Below are positions 22,314 through 42,459 of a DNA stretch of 64,000 nucleotides, piece after piece. The position numbers and the translations under genes were made by a program. Under the pieces are notes generated by a model, which had not been told where the DNA came from, made no database searches, and worked only from the letters and a program-made list of their open reading frames with translations. This DNA is from Anaeromyxobacter dehalogenans 2CP-1. Its GTDB lineage: Bacteria; Myxococcota; Myxococcia; Myxococcales; Anaeromyxobacteraceae. The DNA lies in assembly GCF_000022145.1 (NCBI RefSeq), contig NC_011891.1, forward strand, positions 1,116,001-1,180,000, given 5' to 3'. Numbering within the stretch: the stretch's first letter is position 1; every line of letters begins with the position of its first letter.

Positions 22314-23054
22314 CTACCAGCTCACCCGGCGCGCGCGCCAGGTCGGGCGCCGCCCCATGAGCCGCACCAGCAGCCATCCCGCCACGAACCCGCCCACGTG
22401 CGCGAACAGCGCCACGCCGGTGTTGCCGCCGAAGAAGATGGAGAGGACCTGCAGCAGGAACCACAGGCCGATGAAGAACGCGGCCGGCACCGGGATGATC
22501 CGGATGAAGATCACGATGATGACGAGCGTGGTCACCCGGGCCCGGGGGAACAGCACCATGTAGGCGGCCAGCACGCCGGCGATGGCGCCGCTCGCGCCCA
22601 CCATCGGGACCTCGAGATCGCCGGTGGCCGCCGAGGCGACCACCTGGACCACCGCGGCCACCACGCCGCACGCCAGGTAGAACAGCACGAAGCGCCCGCG
22701 TCCCAGCGCGTCCTCCACGTTGTTCCCGAAGATCCACAGGAACAGCATGTTGGAGCCGACGTGGACCAGCCCCCCGTGCAGGAACATGGCGGTGAGGACG
22801 GTGAGCGGCGGCGGCACGAGATCGCGCGGGTAGACGTCGGAGAACGTCAGGATCTCGAACGGCACCACCCCGCCGCGGAGCGCGGTGTCGCCCAGGCGCG
22901 CGCCCACGTACTCCATGAGGCGGCCGGAGGCGAGCGCGTCGGGCAGGGCGAGCACGTCCACCTGCCACAGGAACGCGAGCACGTTCGCCGCGATGAAGAG
23001 CAGGGTGACCGCCGGTGTGCGTTCGGTGGGGACGTCGTCGCTGAGCGGGATCAC
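22314..23054 (-). CDS. Rhomboid family intramembrane serine protease
   Basis: A 246-residue protein with about six transmembrane helices. The catalytic dyad is present: Ser in VGASGAIAGVLAAY and His in LFAHVGGFVAG, with the oxyanion-region segment MFLHGGLVHVGSNMLFLWIFG carrying the conserved HxxxN. Family members cleave substrates inside the inner membrane. This is the compact bacterial form with a Phe/Tyr-rich second half and a basic C-terminal tail. Start is the ATG at 23054. Substrate unknown. Confidence 0.88.
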   Translation of the reverse strand: MIPLSDDVPTERTPAVTLLFIAANVLAFLWQVDVLALPDALASGRLMEYVGARLGDTALRGGVVPFEILTFSDVYPRDLVPPPLTVLTAMFLHGGLVHVGSNMLFLWIFGNNVEDALGRGRFVLFYLACGVVAAVVQVVASAATGDLEVPMVGASGAIAGVLAAYMVLFPRARVTTLVIIVIFIRIIPVPAAFFIGLWFLLQVLSIFFGGNTGVALFAHVGGFVAGWLLVRLMGRRPTWRARRVSW

Positions 23055-23128
23055 GTGGGCTCGCCTCGGCCGGCAATGCTATAAGGCCGCCCGCCCACCC
23101 GGTGACCCGATCGTCCGCTCTGACATCC

Positions 23129-23168
23129 GTGTCGTGGCGGTGTCGCCCGGAGGACGGGGTTCCGACAC
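23129..23168. promoter_or_regulatory. Candidate enhancer (upstream activator) site for the lpxC sigma-54 promoter
   Basis: A GTGTCG half-site recurs at 23129-23134 and 23140-23145 and in inverted form as CGACAC at 23163-23168; the last two make a perfect dyad with a 17-base spacer. A TGACA at 23121-23125 adds a near-matching inverted half next to the first copy. The site lies about 115-155 bases upstream of the -24 element, the usual enhancer position for sigma-54 activators. Confidence 0.4.
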
Positions 23169-23280
23169 CCTCGCGGAGCGGACTGACCCGGCCGCGGGAG
23201 GGTGGGGCGAAAAGGCTCGGTAGGAACGAGGGGTTAGCGGCAGTGCCGCGGACCCATGAAGTGCCCGGAAATCGGGTTGA

Positions 23281-23297
23281 TTGGCACGTCGATTGCT
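23281..23297 (+). promoter_or_regulatory. Sigma-54 (RpoN) -24/-12 promoter of lpxC
   Basis: The sequence TTGGCACG-tcga-TTGCT matches the RpoN consensus YTGGCACG-N4-TTGCW at every defined position, with GG (23283-23284) and GC (23295-23296) separated by exactly ten bases. A start near 23308 would leave a leader of about 34 bases to the lpxC ATG at 23342. A possible extended -10 (TGC-TATAAG, 23077-23085) further upstream could give a second, sigma-70 transcript. Confidence 0.75.
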
Positions 23298-23341
23298 CGG
23301 AAGGGGGCCGCCCGGGCGACGCGCCCAGAACGGACTTGGAC

Positions 23342-24268
23342 ATGGCTTCCTGGAATCAGCGAACGGTCGCGAAGCGGGTCTCCTGCACGGGGGTGGGCCT
23401 CCACTCCGGCCGGCCCGCGACCCTGACGCTCGCGCCCGCCCCGGCCGACGCCGGCATCACGTTCGTCCGCATGGACCTCGGCGTCGAGATCCCCGCGCGC
23501 AACGAGCACGTGGTCGACACGATGCTCTCGACCTCGCTCGGCCGCGGCAGCGCCCGCGTGGCCACGGTCGAGCACGTCATGGCCGCGCTGCACGGCATGG
23601 GCATCGACAACTGCCGCGTCGAGGTGGACGGCCCGGAGATCCCGATCCTGGACGGCTCCGCCGCGCCGTTCACCTGCCTCGTGCAGGAGGCCGGCGTGAA
23701 GGTGCAGCCCGCCGGCAAGCGCTACCTGGTCGTCGACCAGGCCGTCGAGATCCGCGACGGCGACAAGCTGGCGCGCCTCGAGCCCGCGGAGGGCTTCTCG
23801 GTCTCCTTCACCGCGGACTTCGGCCACCCGCTCATCACCGACCAGTCGTTCCAGGTGAAGCTGGGCGAGCGCGCCTTCGAGCGCGAGGTGGCCCGCGCGC
23901 GCACGTTCTGCTTCCGGCGCGACATCGAGAAGATGCAGGCGATGGGGCTGGCCAGGGGCGGCAGCCTCGAGAACGCCATCGTGGTGGACGAGTTCTCGAT
24001 CCTGAACCCCGAGGGGCTGCGCTTCCCGGACGAGTTCGCGCGGCACAAGGTGCTCGACGCGATCGGCGACCTGGCGCTGTTCGGGCTCCCGGTGGTGGGC
24101 GCGCTCGTCGCGGTGAAGAGCGGCCACGCCATGAACCAGGCGCTGGTGAAGAAGGTCCTGGCCGACCCCGCCTCGCATCGCGTGGTCCGGGTGACCGGCG
24201 AGGCCGACGCGCCGGCGCTCCGCGCGAAGGTGCCGGCCCTCGCGATCCACGAGGGCTCCGCGGCCTAG
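23342..24268 (+). CDS. lpxC: UDP-3-O-acyl-N-acetylglucosamine deacetylase LpxC
   Basis: A 308-residue protein from ATG 23342. Both LpxC domains are complete: TGVGLHSGRPATLTL at the N-terminus, VATVEHVMAALHGMGIDNC (zinc-binding His), EIPILDGSAAPF, the RTFCFRRDIEKM loop, FARHKVLDAIGDLALFG (zinc-binding His and Asp) and SGHAMNQALVK (third conserved His). It catalyses the committed, Zn-dependent step of lipid A synthesis in the cytosol. It stands alone rather than at the end of a cell-division cluster as in gamma-proteobacteria, and is preceded by a sigma-54 promoter. Confidence 0.95.
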   Translation: MASWNQRTVAKRVSCTGVGLHSGRPATLTLAPAPADAGITFVRMDLGVEIPARNEHVVDTMLSTSLGRGSARVATVEHVMAALHGMGIDNCRVEVDGPEIPILDGSAAPFTCLVQEAGVKVQPAGKRYLVVDQAVEIRDGDKLARLEPAEGFSVSFTADFGHPLITDQSFQVKLGERAFEREVARARTFCFRRDIEKMQAMGLARGGSLENAIVVDEFSILNPEGLRFPDEFARHKVLDAIGDLALFGLPVVGALVAVKSGHAMNQALVKKVLADPASHRVVRVTGEADAPALRAKVPALAIHEGSAA

Positions 24269-24355: not shown

Positions 24356-25387
24356 GTGGACCTCGCGCCCCGCCCGCTCCCCGCCGCGCCGGCCGCCATC
24401 CTCGACGCCGCAGGGACGCCGTGCCTCGGCGCCTACCACGGCACCGTCGCCTCCGCGGCGCTGCGGCCGCTCGCGCCGCCCGGTCTCGCCGGCGCGGTCG
24501 CGCACCTGGCGCGCGCGAAGCGCTGGGTCTACGTGTTCGCGGCGGGTGAACGGGCCGCGCTCGGGCTGGCGGTGGTCGAGGCGGGGTGGTTCGCCGGCGC
24601 GTTCCTGTGGGTGCTGGACCGCACCGCCGGGCGGATGCTGGCGGAGCGGCGCGGCTCGGGCCTCCCCGGGGTGAACGCGCGGGTGGAGGAGCGCCCGTGG
24701 GGCGGCGCCACCTGGCGCGGGGGCGGCCTGGAGCTCCGCGTCACCGGCGCGCCCGGTGCGCTGCGGGTGGAGGGCGCCGGCCGCGGGGGGCTCGCGCTGG
24801 ACCTCTCGCTCGACGCCGCCGGCGCGCCCGGTCCGCTCACCGTGATCGCGCCGGTGCCCGGCGCCGGGCCGCGGCTCACCGAGAAGCGGGCCGGGATGGC
24901 GGCGCGCGGCGCGGTGCGCCTGGGCGGCCGGAGCCTGCCGCTCGACGGCGGCGCCGGCGGCGCCGACTTCACGGCCGGGCTGCTCGCCCGCCGCACCGAC
25001 TGGCGCTGGGCCTTCGGCACCGGCTTCGCCGCGGACGGCGCGGCGCTCGGCTTCAACCTGTGCGCCGGCTTCGGCCTGCCGCCCGGCGACGCCGCGGAGA
25101 ACGCGCTGCTCGCCGGCGACGGGCCGCTGGCGCTGCCGGCGGTCGCGTTCGCGTTCGACCCGGCGCGACCGCTCGCGCCGTGGCGCGTGGAGAGCGCCGG
25201 CGGCGCCGTGCGCCTCGCGTTCCGGCCGGAGGCGGTCCACCGCGAGGACGTCGCGCGCGGCGTGGTGCGGACGCGCTTCGCGCAGGTGGCGGGGACGTTC
25301 GAGGGGGTGCTCCCCGCGCCCGGCGGCGGTGCGCTGGCCGTCGCCGGGCTGCCCGGGGTGGTGGAGGACCACCGCGCGGTCTGGTGA
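24356..25387 (+). CDS. DUF2804 family protein
   Basis: A 343-residue protein from GTG 24356. The family landmarks include ARAKRWVYVFAAGER, the duplicated beta-rich halves, RRTDWRWAFGTGFAADGAALGFNLC and ENALL, then WRVESAGGAVRLAFRPEA. DUF2804 proteins are large lipocalin-like beta barrels of unknown function, probably binding a lipid or other hydrophobic ligand; there is no signal peptide. It is 87 bases downstream of lpxC on the same strand and converges on the SRPBCC gene immediately at its stop. Confidence 0.8.
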   Translation: MDLAPRPLPAAPAAILDAAGTPCLGAYHGTVASAALRPLAPPGLAGAVAHLARAKRWVYVFAAGERAALGLAVVEAGWFAGAFLWVLDRTAGRMLAERRGSGLPGVNARVEERPWGGATWRGGGLELRVTGAPGALRVEGAGRGGLALDLSLDAAGAPGPLTVIAPVPGAGPRLTEKRAGMAARGAVRLGGRSLPLDGGAGGADFTAGLLARRTDWRWAFGTGFAADGAALGFNLCAGFGLPPGDAAENALLAGDGPLALPAVAFAFDPARPLAPWRVESAGGAVRLAFRPEAVHREDVARGVVRTRFAQVAGTFEGVLPAPGGGALAVAGLPGVVEDHRAVW

Positions 25388-27854: not shown

Positions 27855-28796
27855 TCACGCGCCGGCCGCCCGCTCGAGCTCCGCCGGGGCGGGCAGGCGC
27901 TGGCGCAGCGTCAGCACCGGGGCGAACAGGTCCCCCACGCGCTCGACCCGCCGGAGCACCGCGCCTGCCTCGAACACCAGCCCGCCCGCGTCGCGGGTCC
28001 GCACGGCCTTCTCCACCTCTGCCCAGCGGAGCGGGGTGGAGACGGTGGGGCGCGGCCGCGCCCGGAGCGAGTAGACGCAGACGGTGGTCTTGTGCGGGTC
28101 GTTCTGGCTCCAGTCCACCAGCACCTTGCCGCCGCGGAGCGCCTTCGCCATGCGCTCGACCACGAGCTGCGGGTGGCGGCGCTCCAGCACGCGGGCGACG
28201 GCGTGCGCGAACGGCTTCGTGTCCGCGTAGGTGGCGCCGGAGAGCGGCACGTACAGCTGCATGCCCTTCGAGCCGGAGCTCTTCGGGAACGCCTCCAGGC
28301 CCAGCGCGGCGAGCAGCCGCCGCAGCAGCAGCGCCACCTCGCAGCAGGCGAGCAGCTCGGCGGGCGGGCCCGGGTCGAGGTCGAACACGAGCGCGGTGGG
28401 CCGCTCCACGTCGTCCACCCGCGACAGCGAGGGGTGGAGCTCCAGGTCGGCGATGCTGGCGAGCCACACCAGCGAGGACAGGTCGTCCACCACGCAGTAG
28501 TCGATGTAGTCCTGGTTGCCCTCGCTCCAGATCGCCTCGGTCCGGAACCAGTCCGGGCGGTGGCGCGGACAGCGCTTCTCGTAGAAGTGCGGCCCGTCCA
28601 CGCCCTCCGGGTAGCGCTTCAGCGTGAGCGGCCGATCCCGCAGGTGCGGCAGGAGCACGGGGGCGACGCGGCGGTAGTAGTCCACCACCTCACCCTTGGT
28701 GAAGCCGGCCTCGGGGTAGAAGACCTTGTCGAGGTTGCGCAGCTGGATCCGCCGCCCCTCCACCTCGACCTCCACGCCCTGCTGCGCGCGCGCCAC
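27855..28796 (-). CDS. LigD-type NHEJ DNA polymerase/primase (stand-alone polymerase domain)
   Basis: A 313-residue protein comprising only the archaeo-eukaryotic primase-like polymerase domain of LigD. The N-terminus LRNLDKVFYPEAGFTKGEVVDYY, RPLTLKRYPEGVDG, the YCVVDDLSSLVWLASIADLELH block, the catalytic DLDPG, FPKSSGSKGMQLYVPL and VLVDWSQNDPHKTTV are all present and in order. It fills and extends ends, preferring ribonucleotides, during non-homologous end joining. No ligase or phosphoesterase domain is attached; those functions must be encoded elsewhere. It starts 3 bases after the ku stop, so the two form an operon. Confidence 0.9.
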   Translation of the reverse strand: MARAQQGVEVEVEGRRIQLRNLDKVFYPEAGFTKGEVVDYYRRVAPVLLPHLRDRPLTLKRYPEGVDGPHFYEKRCPRHRPDWFRTEAIWSEGNQDYIDYCVVDDLSSLVWLASIADLELHPSLSRVDDVERPTALVFDLDPGPPAELLACCEVALLLRRLLAALGLEAFPKSSGSKGMQLYVPLSGATYADTKPFAHAVARVLERRHPQLVVERMAKALRGGKVLVDWSQNDPHKTTVCVYSLRARPRPTVSTPLRWAEVEKAVRTRDAGGLVFEAGAVLRRVERVGDLFAPVLTLRQRLPAPAELERAAGA

Positions 28797-28799
28797 GGA

Positions 28800-29690
28800 T
28801 CACCCGCGCTTCTTGCGCGACGCGCGCGCGGCGCGGGGCCGGCCGGTGGTCCGGGCCGCGGCCGCGGGCGCGTGGCGTCGCTCGCCTCGCGCCGGCGCCT
28901 CGGGCTCGGCTCCCCGCCGGCGGGCCGCCGCGAGGCTGGCGGAGAGCGCGTCGGCGAGGCTCACCACCTCGGCGCCGGCCGGCTCGGCGGCGGGCGCCTC
29001 GATGGTCTGGCCCTCGGCCTTGCGCTCGATGAGCTCGAGGACGCGCTCGCGACGCAGGTCCGGGTAGCGCTCGGGCTCGAACGGCCCGGAGAGCGACGCG
29101 ACGAGCTGCTCCGCCATCTGCAGCTCGCGCGAGGACGGCTCGCCCGCCTCCGGCAGCTCCAGCGAGCCCGGCGAGTCGATCTCGTCGGCGCGGTTCATGG
29201 TGGAGAGCGCCAGCGCGCCGCCGGCCGCCGGGCGCACGCAGCAGAGCGACTCGCGCGTGCGCAGCACCGCGGTGGCGATCGCGACCTTGCCCGCCTTGCG
29301 CATGGCGTCGCCGAGCAGCCGGTACGCCTTCGCCGCGCTGCGGTCGGGCACGAGGTAGTAGCTCGCCTCGAAGAACGCCGGGTCGATCTCGGAGAGCTCC
29401 ACGAAGTCGTGGATCTCCACCGTGCGCGTGGCCTTCGGGTCGAACGCCTCCAGCTCCTCGCGCGTCACCGTCACGTAGCGGCCGGGCGACACCTCGTACC
29501 CCTTCACGATGTGCTCGTAGGGGACCTCCTTCTCCTCTGTCGAGCAGAAGCGGCGCAGCTGGATGCGGGCGCCGTCCGCGTCGTGCAGCATGTGGAACCG
29601 CACCTCCTTCTGGTGCACCGCGGTGTAGAGCTTCACCGGGATGTTCACCAGGCCGAAGGTCAGCGCGCCGCTCCAGATCGCCCTCGCCAT
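28800..29690 (-). CDS. ku: Ku protein (NHEJ DNA end-binding)
   Basis: A 296-residue protein from ATG 29690 (MARAIWSGALTFGLVNIPVKLYTA), the canonical bacterial Ku opening. Other landmarks are KGYEVSPGRYVTVTREELEAF, ESSYYL-type segment FFEASYYLVP and YPDLRRERVLELIERKAEG, followed by a Lys/Arg/Ala-rich C-terminal tail of about 60 residues (ending ASRKKRG). Bacterial Ku homodimers encircle broken ends and recruit LigD. The basic tail is longer than in the minimal Ku and may aid DNA binding or threading. The in-frame ATG at 29717 would add nine residues not seen in the family. Confidence 0.93.
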   Translation of the reverse strand: MARAIWSGALTFGLVNIPVKLYTAVHQKEVRFHMLHDADGARIQLRRFCSTEEKEVPYEHIVKGYEVSPGRYVTVTREELEAFDPKATRTVEIHDFVELSEIDPAFFEASYYLVPDRSAAKAYRLLGDAMRKAGKVAIATAVLRTRESLCCVRPAAGGALALSTMNRADEIDSPGSLELPEAGEPSSRELQMAEQLVASLSGPFEPERYPDLRRERVLELIERKAEGQTIEAPAAEPAGAEVVSLADALSASLAAARRRGAEPEAPARGERRHAPAAAARTTGRPRAARASRKKRG

Positions 29691-29805
29691 CGGGATGCCT
29701 CCGGACGAACGTTCCATCCCCCGGCCGGCGGCGGCAACGCGCGCCGGCGAGGACGGGGTTCACCTCGGCTGGTGATAGCCCCAGCTTGCGGGGAGGGGAG
29801 GAACC

Positions 29806-39454: not shown

Positions 39455-40921
39455 CTAGAACCGCACCTCGAACGTGCCGTAGAAGTCCTGCGCGGACTTC
39501 ATGGGCGGGAGCATCTGCGCGTTCATGGGGCTGGCCATCAGCTCCGAGATCTTCACCGGGGCGCCGATCCAGTTGTTGCTGCCGGTGTAGTCGAAGTCGT
39601 AGTACTGCCAGCCCACCTTGAAGAACGCCTTGCTGACGAACGAGGAGATCGCCGGCAGCGGCAGCTCCTGGATCAGGTACGCCTCGTAGACGTTGCCGCG
39701 GGTGCCGAGCTTGCTCGTCCACAGGTCGTCGGCGGCGGGGTCGAACGGCATCCAGTACTTCGAGCCGTGGTTGTACTCGCCGCCGATCTTGGTGCCGGCG
39801 GGCAGGTCGTAGCGGAGGCCCGCGTACGCGCCCCAGCCAGTGCGGTCGGAGTCGTCCGGGCCGCTGGTGAGCAGGCCGGCGCCGGAGTCCATCCCGCCGA
39901 GCAGCATGTGCTTCCCGTTCGGGTGGGTGATGCTGACGCCGCCGCTCGCGAACGAGGTGAGGCTGCCGGGGCCGATGCCCTTCAGCGTGCTGAGCACGCC
40001 CACGCCGTACCAGTCGATGTCGCCGAGCTCGACGCCCACGTTGTTCGGGTCGTCGAAGATGTTGAACCCGCGGTTCCACTGGAAGTCGACGCGGAGCGGA
40101 TCCGTGTCCACCGGAACGACCTGGACGCCGACCATGTCGGTGTCCTTCAGGTCGTTGGTGTTGCTGTAGCCGGCCTCGAAGCCGCGGCCGTAGCAGAGCT
40201 TCGCGAACGCGCCGGGGAGCGCGTCGATCTCCGGCGCCCAGCCCAGCGTCATGCCGTCGAACGCGTAGTCCACCAGCAGGCCGGGCACGCCGCCGTTGCC
40301 GGGGCGCTCGCCGTTCTGCCGCACGTGGGTGGGCGAACCGCCCGTGGACGGGCGGCGGCCGACCGAGAACCACACCGGCTGGTCGAAGATGTTGCTCCAG
40401 GTGGCGAACACCTGGTCCACGCGGAGGACGTTGTCCGTCGGGATGTGGCCGATGGTGCCGTCCAGGACCGACATCCGGTCCGCGAAGAAGCCGGCGTTGG
40501 TCGCGTCGGCGGTCTGCATGCCGCTCGTCTTGTTCATGAGCAGGCGCGTCGTGACCGTGACGTTCCGCGTCGCCTTGGCCTTCAGGTTCAGGCCGAAGCG
40601 GTTCGTCATCAGCGTCCCGTTCTCCGGGTCGAAGCCGGGCATCGGCACCGGCATGGCCGCCGGCCCCATGTACTGGTAGTACGCGGGGACCTCGCCCTTC
40701 AGCGAGTCGAGGCGGAACCGGTAGTCGCCGCTCACGGTCAGCCACTTGCTGAGCGACTTCTCCTCGTCCTTCTTCACCTGCTGCTTCAGCGCCTCGAGCT
40801 CCTTCGCCAGCTCGTCGAGCTTCTTCTGCTGCGGATCGGGGTCGGCGGCGCGGCCGGCCAGCGGCAGCGTCAGGGCGGCCAGCGCCGCCCCCGTCACGAT
40901 GATTCGGATCAGCTTGCGCAC
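39455..40921 (-). CDS. DUF3373-type outer-membrane beta-barrel (porin-like)
   Basis: A 488-residue protein from GTG 40921, which has a strong RBS (CAGGAGAT) and opens with a signal peptide (VRKLIRIIVTGAALAALTLPLAGRA). After cleavage comes a coiled-coil segment (DPQQKKLDELAKELEALKQQVKKDEEKSLSKW, about residues 27-58), as in many porins with periplasmic anchors, then a beta-strand-rich domain (WLTVSGDYRFRLDSLK, WSNIFDQPVWFSVGRRP, GWGAYAGLRYDLPAGTKIGGEYNHGSKYW) ending in FEVRF, the outer-membrane C-terminal Phe. DUF3373 proteins occur with multihaem cytochromes in metal reducers. A longer in-frame start at 41119 would read through the regulatory gap. First gene of the operon. Confidence 0.87.
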   Translation of the reverse strand: MRKLIRIIVTGAALAALTLPLAGRAADPDPQQKKLDELAKELEALKQQVKKDEEKSLSKWLTVSGDYRFRLDSLKGEVPAYYQYMGPAAMPVPMPGFDPENGTLMTNRFGLNLKAKATRNVTVTTRLLMNKTSGMQTADATNAGFFADRMSVLDGTIGHIPTDNVLRVDQVFATWSNIFDQPVWFSVGRRPSTGGSPTHVRQNGERPGNGGVPGLLVDYAFDGMTLGWAPEIDALPGAFAKLCYGRGFEAGYSNTNDLKDTDMVGVQVVPVDTDPLRVDFQWNRGFNIFDDPNNVGVELGDIDWYGVGVLSTLKGIGPGSLTSFASGGVSITHPNGKHMLLGGMDSGAGLLTSGPDDSDRTGWGAYAGLRYDLPAGTKIGGEYNHGSKYWMPFDPAADDLWTSKLGTRGNVYEAYLIQELPLPAISSFVSKAFFKVGWQYYDFDYTGSNNWIGAPVKISELMASPMNAQMLPPMKSAQDFYGTFEVRF

Positions 40922-40971
40922 GCGGGATCTCCTGTTCAGTGGACGGCCGCACGGGCCTCGCTCATGCCCTT

Positions 40972-40987
40972 TGCGGGACGCGTGCCT
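40972..40987 (-). promoter_or_regulatory. Candidate sigma-54 promoter of the porin-cytochrome operon
   Basis: On the minus strand AGGCACG-cgtc-CCGCA aligns to TGGCACG-N4-TTGCA. GG (40986-40985) and GC (40974-40973) are ten bases apart and the GGCACG core is intact, but the TT of the -12 element is CC. Start would be near 40961, 40 bases before the GTG. The weak -12 keeps this below the lpxC site in strength; its place opposite a sigma-54 activator gene is the main support. Confidence 0.5.
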
Positions 40988-41048
40988 GCGACCGAGTGCC
41001 CTGATTCCGAGCGGTTGCGACGGGCGCGCCGGTCGCGACGACACGGAA

Positions 41049-41078
41049 CGTTTCAGCGCGACGAAACACCGCGTTTCG
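41049..41078. promoter_or_regulatory. Three half-site operator for the divergent sigma-54 activator
   Basis: A perfect dyad CGAAAC-accgc-GTTTCG (41062-41078) is joined by a third half-site CGTTTC (41049-41054) 8 bases before it. It is 60-95 bases upstream of the candidate -24 element of the porin operon and 32-61 bases upstream of the activator ATG, so one protein bound here could drive the operon and repress its own gene. Such divergent autoregulated layouts are common for bacterial enhancer-binding proteins. Confidence 0.5.
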
Positions 41079-41109
41079 CGCTGCGACGCGACATGCCAGC
41101 CTGCGGCAC

Positions 41110-42459
41110 ATGAGCGCATCGGAGCAGGGCAGCGAGGTCGCCTTCGCCGCGGTGAACGCGGCCTTCGGATCCCTCGGGCGCGTGTGCATGGCGCTCGACG
41201 ACCAGTTCCGGGTGCGGCACGTGTCGTCGCGCCTGGACGTGCTGCTCGGGGAAGGCGCCGCGGCGCGGACGGTCGGGACGCCGGTGGAGGCGCTGCTCGG
41301 CGCCGAGCTGTTCGGCGCGGACGGCCCCATCCGCCACGCGCTGCTGGCGGGCGAGAAGCGCGAGGGCTGGCGCGCGCTGCTCCGGGCCGGCGACGGTGCC
41401 TCGCACCTGCTCTCCGTCACCGCCGCGCCGCTCCAGCTCGATCCGCACGGCGTGTGCGCGCGGGACGCGCGCTACCTGGTGGTGCTCCGGCCCGCCGAGG
41501 AGGAGGCGGGCGACGCCGCCGCCGCGCTGGCCACCACCGGCATCATCAGCCGCTCGCGCGCCATGGGCCGGGTGGTGCGGCTGGTGGAGAGCCTGCAGTA
41601 CAGCGAGGCCTCGGTGCTCGTCACCGGCGAGAGCGGCTCGGGCAAGGAGGTCCTGGCGCGGCTCATCCACGCGCACTCGCCGCGCCGGAGCGGGCCGTTC
41701 GTGGCGGTGAACGCCGCCGCGCTGCCGGGCGACCTGCTCGAGAGCGAGCTGTTCGGCCACGTGCGCGGCGCGTTCACCGGCGCCACCCGCGACCGGCCGG
41801 GCCGCTTCGCCGCGGCCGCCCAGGGCACGCTGTTCCTCGACGAGGTCGGCGACCTGCCGCTGCACCTGCAGGTCAAGTTGCTGCGCGTGCTGCAGGAGCA
41901 CACCTACGAGCGCGTCGGCGAGAACCAGCCGCGCCGCGCCGACGCGCGCATCATCGCGGCCACGAACCGCGACCTGCGCCGCGCCGTGGCGGACGGGACG
42001 TTCCGCGAGGACCTGTACTACCGCCTGCGCGTGTTCCCGGTGGAGATCCCCCCGCTCCGTGAGCGGCGGGAGGACATCGAGCCGATGGCGCAGCTCCTCC
42101 TGTCCCGCGTCTGCGCGCGGGCCGGCCGGGCGGTGCGCTTCTCGCCGGACGCGCTCCGGGCGCTCATGTCGCACTCGTGGCCGGGCAACGTGCGCGAGCT
42201 CGAGAACGCGCTCGAGTTCGCCGTGACGGTGTGCCGGGGCCAGACGGTGCAGCCCGAGGACCTGCCGCCGGAGGTGCTCGGCGGCGGGGCGCCGGAGCAC
42301 GCGCCGGTGCGCGCGTTCGAGCCGGCGGACGCGTACGAGCGCGCCGCCATCGAGGCCGCCCTGCAGGCGCACCGCTGGAGCCGCGCGGAGGCGGCGCGAG
42401 CGCTGGGGCTCTCGCGCAGCACGCTCTGGCGGCGCATGCGCTCGCTCAACATCGGGTGA
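41110..42459 (+). CDS. Sigma-54-dependent transcriptional activator (PAS-AAA+-Fis)
   Basis: A 449-residue enhancer-binding protein. Residues 14-130 form a PAS-like sensor ([25 protein letters not shown] and the later [14 protein letters not shown]-type strand). The central AAA+ domain has Walker [10 protein letters not shown], the sigma-54-contacting loop [10 protein letters not shown], Walker [14 protein letters not shown] and the [15 protein letters not shown] helix. The C-terminal Fis-type HTH is [22 protein letters not shown]. No receiver domain is present, so it probably answers to a ligand or redox signal through PAS. It is divergent from the porin-cytochrome operon. Confidence 0.93.

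Follow-up and report, generated by a model that had tools for sequence, protein, structure and literature searches.

In Desulfovibrio vulgaris, lpxC (DVU2917) is the sole target of the sigma-54-dependent response regulator DVU2934 (PMC3333781), and this pair has been placed under lipid A biosynthesis in the sigma-54 regulome of the bacterium (PMC4641369). The validated DVU2934 motif was found in front of lpxC in Desulfovibrio relatives alone (PMC3333781). A 2025 survey lists COG0774 (LpxC) among the gene families in which predicted sigma-54 promoters are enriched in Myxococcia (PMC12316311), and lpxC of Leptospira was reported to have a putative sigma-54 promoter (PMC12655853). Given these D. 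vulgaris, Myxococcia and Leptospira records, the statement in the original prediction for the locus studied here, that no such case had been described, was wrong. A regulator of related type is the two-component system NtrYX of Rhodobacter sphaeroides, which controls the cell envelope (PMC7240162).

The myxobacterial locus resembles the D. vulgaris system, with its single-target regulator DVU2934, in that lpxC would be controlled by a sigma-54-dependent activator of the NtrC family (in Myxococcia this is a proposal), but D. vulgaris belongs to a different phylum, and in the Myxococcota loci no gene for an enhancer-binding protein (EBP) adjoins lpxC. The survey entry concerns the same gene family and class, rests on a promoter matrix and is one item in a list; the available portions of that paper mention no enhancer site, spacing, Myxococcus xanthus lpxC or link to essentiality (PMC12316311). 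The Leptospira promoter shares the predicted -24/-12 element, but it belongs to a spirochaete, is a prediction only, and is presented in the accessible text without an enhancer site (PMC12655853). R. sphaeroides NtrYX is alike in that an NtrC-family regulator is connected with the envelope and with the lpxC transcript level, but its effect on lpxC is negative and was judged indirect, and its proposed site is GCA-N9-TGC, not the GACA-N4-TGTC described below (PMC7240162). A search of open-licence papers found no account of a GACA-N4-TGTC site, of retained spacing, of an M. xanthus lpxC promoter or of an lpxC-based explanation of sigma-54 essentiality. What is new here is the palindrome, its retained spacing, the breadth of the arrangement and the hypothesis linking lpxC to the essentiality of sigma-54 in M. 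xanthus.

LpxC catalyses the first committed step in the synthesis of outer-membrane lipid A. The gene lies in a 64,000-nucleotide stretch of the Anaeromyxobacter dehalogenans 2CP-1 genome (the window; NC_011891.1, positions 1,116,001-1,180,000), at 23342-24268 of the plus strand, and encodes a UDP-3-O-acyl-N-acetylglucosamine deacetylase of 308 amino acids, which scores 358 bits with TIGR00325 (curated cut-off 187) and 361 bits with PF03331. The other border of the upstream intergenic region is formed by a divergent gene for a rhomboid-family protease (22314-23054, minus strand; PF01694, 117.7 bits), a neighbour that adjoins lpxC in 24 of 109 Myxococcota loci. On the downstream side, a DUF2804 protein gene (24356-25387, plus strand) begins 87 bp past lpxC and may be co-transcribed with it.

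The sequence at 23281-23297 of the window (plus strand), TTGGCACGTCGATTGCT, is located 61 bp upstream of the lpxC ATG (23342) and has the structure of a -24/-12 element, TTGGCACG-TCGA-TTGCT, with the -24 GG at 23283-23284 and the -12 GC at 23295-23296 in the YTGGCACG-N4-TTGCW context of sigma-54-dependent promoters. It was originally claimed to fit the RpoN consensus everywhere, and it is indeed identical at all non-spacer positions to TTGGCACGGTTTTTGCT, the consensus published for Geobacter sulfurreducens (PMC2725144). A pattern search of the 5,029,329-bp genome with TTGGCACGNNNNTTGCW yielded a single match, the one at lpxC, against about 0.1 chance matches per genome estimated from base composition and no match to the reversed control pattern in the 5.03 Mb. 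At sigma-54 promoters transcription begins 12 nt past the -12 GC and requires RpoN together with an activator that hydrolyses ATP. By this geometry the lpxC transcript is predicted to start at 23308 (plus strand) with a leader of 34 nt. The machinery for such a promoter is encoded in the same genome, which has rpoN (PF04552 match) and EBPs (39 strong PF00158 matches).

In a set of nine genomes of the genus, whose LpxC proteins are 82-100% identical, YTGGCAYRTCGATTGCT is found at the same place in all nine, while the rest of the intergenic region has largely diverged. Absence of the -24/-12 element from near relatives still carrying lpxC would have contradicted the original prediction; within the genus no such loss was seen. 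Anaeromyxobacter sp. PSR-1 (L267) carries the same lpxC box and palindrome as one of the genus genomes (G006). In the phylum Myxococcota, lpxC was located in 160 of 179 genomes, and 100 further loci were analysed together with the nine from the genus. The pattern GGC[AG][CT]-N5-TTGC was present 20-140 bp upstream of 84 of these 109 lpxC genes, whereas of the 723 other genes predicted in these loci 19 had it, and a strict form of the box preceded 76 of the 109, compared with 1.3% of random 140-mers. This conservation across the class Myxococcia and beyond argues that lpxC probably has the sigma-54 promoter that had been proposed for it.

The original prediction had also pointed to repeats of GTGTCG in the same upstream region. 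Three copies are present (at 23129, 23140 and, in reverse orientation, 23163; 0.14 would be expected in 221 bp), and the latter two form the inverted repeat GGTGTCG-N17-CGACACC (23139-23169), so that this part of the claim stood. Among the genomes of the genus, only the three closest (L001-L003, LpxC 97% identical) have an intact dyad, and the others have lost it; it is therefore unlikely to be a functional element, and we rejected it as a regulatory site. A different palindrome, GACA-TCCG-TGTC at 23122-23133 (GACATCCGTGTC), whose right half overlaps the GTGTCG copy at 23129, is conserved: GACA-N4-TGTC is present in all nine genomes of the genus. Its centre precedes the -24 GG by about 155 bp, and upstream activator sites are typically found about 80-200 bp upstream of sigma-54 promoters. 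The conserved palindrome thus has the position of an upstream activator site, and we propose it as the putative binding site, and likely the enhancer, of an NtrC-family activator.

The strict GACA-N4-TGTC core was found in 71 of the 109 Myxococcota lpxC upstream regions, and the flanks of these 71 palindromes were also symmetric, giving the extended consensus AyCnyGACAnnnnTGTCrnGGT. A weight matrix for the palindrome was built from these loci themselves, which makes its scores partly circular; counts of the strict core are free of this problem. In the class Myxococcia, with a slightly different box pattern, 86 of 95 lpxC loci had the box, 77 had the palindrome and 75 had both. Outside this class, 4 of 14 Myxococcota loci had the box. 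The two elements tend to occur together (Fisher p 1.4e-6 over loci and 0.002 over genera), but the loci are related by descent and the locus-level values overstate their independence. The A. dehalogenans genome contains seven copies of GACA-N4-TGTC, and in a regulon search among these seven a convincing sigma-54 box was seen only near the copy at lpxC.

The distance between the palindrome centre and the -24 GG is 154-159 bp in Anaeromyxobacter as well as in most Myxococcus, Corallococcus and relatives, whereas the distance from box to ATG changes from about 61-69 bp in the former to about 110-125 bp in most of the latter. A steady distance between palindrome and box combined with a drifting distance between box and ATG is what is predicted for a promoter with its own enhancer site. 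Other genera show other spacings between palindrome and box, mostly about 104-150 bp, and a test for helical phasing of this spacing gave a weak result (p 0.04-0.15). Upstream of lpxC of M. xanthus AM003 the two elements are GTGGCATGCTGCTTGCT at -120 and GACATCGGTGTC at -282, placing the predicted 5' end about 93 (± 2) nt before the ATG; Pyxidicoccus and Corallococcus have similar pairs of box and palindrome.

Five Myxococcota genomes (G130, G133, G134, G095 and G047) have kept rpoN and lack both elements at lpxC, so the link between sigma-54 and lpxC is not obligatory, and some lineages appear to have rewired lpxC control. That sigma-54 control of lpxC was lost in genomes without detectable rpoN was considered and rejected: two such genomes (G131 and G135) still encode EBPs, and for this reason the missing rpoN is probably an assembly gap.

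The -24/-12 box extends beyond the phylum. Its strict form was found at 10 of 12 lpxC loci in records of Desulfobacteraceae, Desulfuromonadaceae, Geobacteraceae and other deltaproteobacterial types, and at 2 of 51 loci of gamma- and betaproteobacterial type. Among 30 lpxC loci from the phylum of a Desulfobacteraceae metagenome-assembled genome (the Desulfobacterota set), 26 had the strict box, compared with 3.8% of random 140-mers, and on the reverse strand of the same 30 loci it was found in none. GACA-N4-TGTC, tried as a general Desulfobacterota site, was not supported: it occurred only in L271/L336 and L343. Of 20 wide loci of the Desulfobacterota set, four (L369, L377, L380 and L381) have genes for a kinase of the NtrY type and a sigma-54 activator of the NtrX type after lpxC. 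Between lpxC and the ntrY-like gene, three of the four have a small DUF4390-like gene, with no DUF4390-like ORF seen in L369; of these four loci, the Pfam and NCBIfam scan covered the proteins of L380. The gene order suggests that an NtrYX-type system controls lpxC in those genomes. A second recurrent dyad, with a T-run in its loop (e.g. TGTGGTTTTTTTGCCACA), was noticed about 210-320 bp before lpxC in L271, L272, L275, L278 and L291; in these genomes of Desulfobacterota type it may act as a terminator or as a site for a regulator.

We consider it very probable that lpxC is transcribed by sigma-54 RNA polymerase from the element at 23281-23297 with the help of an NtrC-family activator acting at GACA-N4-TGTC. 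The polymerase would wait there as a closed complex, with transcription starting near 23308. A dimer of an AAA+ EBP of the NtrC family would bind the palindrome at 23122-23133 and then assemble, loop out the intervening 155 bp or so of DNA, and open the lpxC promoter by ATP hydrolysis. The arrangement of box and palindrome is probably ancestral in the class Myxococcia, with the -24/-12 part common to the Desulfobacterota. We infer promoter activity, sigma-54 dependence, looping and the activator from comparison of sequences.

At close to even chances, the sigma-54 promoter exists but plays an auxiliary part, the basal lpxC transcript coming from a sigma-70 promoter and sigma-54 adding regulated output. 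This is compatible with the explanation given above and competes only with sigma-54 as the sole route. It would be risky for an essential gene to have no basal promoter and, according to the 2025 survey, essential sigma-54 targets often have other inputs (PMC12316311). An extended -10-like sequence, TGCTATAAG at 23077-23085, is kept in all nine genomes of the genus (as TGGTATAAG in one of them); it may be an extended -10 directed toward lpxC, though it also fits the -10 of the divergent rhomboid gene. On the other hand, in alignments of the genus and of Myxococcaceae the -24/-12 box is the sole clearly conserved promoter-like island between palindrome and ATG, a soft argument, as sigma-70 promoters conserve weakly. 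It is improbable that the palindrome is instead an operator of the rhomboid gene or the site of another regulator and not a sigma-54 enhancer. In the window it does sit between divergent genes, with the start codon of the rhomboid gene 68 bp away, but 58 loci have the palindrome and no divergent rhomboid gene, and it therefore belongs with lpxC; moreover, it correlates with the box, and its spacing to the box is kept while ATG distances change. Sigma-54 bound to DNA independently of an activator can disturb other promoters, and the holoenzyme could for this general reason act mainly as a block to transcription from an upstream promoter rather than drive lpxC; we regard this as very improbable, since the conserved palindrome, at a distance usual for enhancers, is in keeping with activation, and lpxC of D. 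vulgaris is the target of a sigma-54 activator. Least credible of all is a chance or non-functional -24/-12 match: a consensus match by itself is weak evidence, but this reading is already contradicted by the conservation of the strict box in Myxococcota and the Desulfobacterota set far above its frequency in random 140-mers, by its scarcity at gamma- and betaproteobacterial lpxC genes and by its absence from the reverse strand.

If the sigma-54 promoter of lpxC is as proposed, a class-wide enhancer-dependent promoter would mean that in myxobacteria, and probably in Desulfobacterota too, lipid A flux is set by a different logic, that of signal-gated transcription. In M. xanthus deletion of sigma-54 was not possible, and the cause has been described as awaiting elucidation (PMC2725144); it is likewise not deletable in G. 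sulfurreducens (PMC2725144, PMC4641369). An essential lpxC behind a sigma-54 promoter would be a direct candidate reason for the M. xanthus observation. In the strongest form of this hypothesis, which we put forward tentatively and think rather unlikely to hold in full, the sigma-54 promoter with GACA-N4-TGTC is the only or limiting route to lpxC in Myxococcia, so that a single EBP would gate lipid A synthesis and rpoN would for this reason be undeletable in M. xanthus. Were this true, expression of lpxC from a sigma-54-independent promoter should render rpoN wholly or almost wholly dispensable.

None of the 109 Myxococcota loci, some of them shorter than the distance covered, showed an EBP gene within about 6 kb of lpxC, and the linkage of ntrY-ntrX to lpxC seen in four loci of the Desulfobacterota set did not occur in these 109. 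NtrX was not supported as the myxobacterial activator: among the EBPs parsed from two small myxobacterial genomes (G150 and G152) none was NtrX-like, and G152 has both box and palindrome. Among the EBPs of the A. dehalogenans genome (G000), L151 (G000:2656703) and L148 (G000:4891102), both well conserved, were rejected, having no orthologues in G045 and G046 despite strong palindromes there. L164, L155, L154 and L150 were rejected as a clean dedicated regulator, their orthologues being present also in genomes without the lpxC unit. L164 (G000:814504) is 64% identical in G150, with a near-invariant recognition helix, and together with L156 it is a weak candidate for the lpxC activator.

Two other regions of the window were noted. 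About 17 kb downstream of lpxC, a gene at 41110-42459 (plus strand) encodes a sigma-54 activator of 449 amino acids without receiver domain (PF00158 and a Fis-type helix-turn-helix), its start overlapping that of a divergent predicted ORF (39455-41119, minus strand). Adjacent genes at 27855-29717 (minus strand) resemble, by eye, those of a LigD-type primase/polymerase domain protein and Ku, the bacterial end-joining pair.
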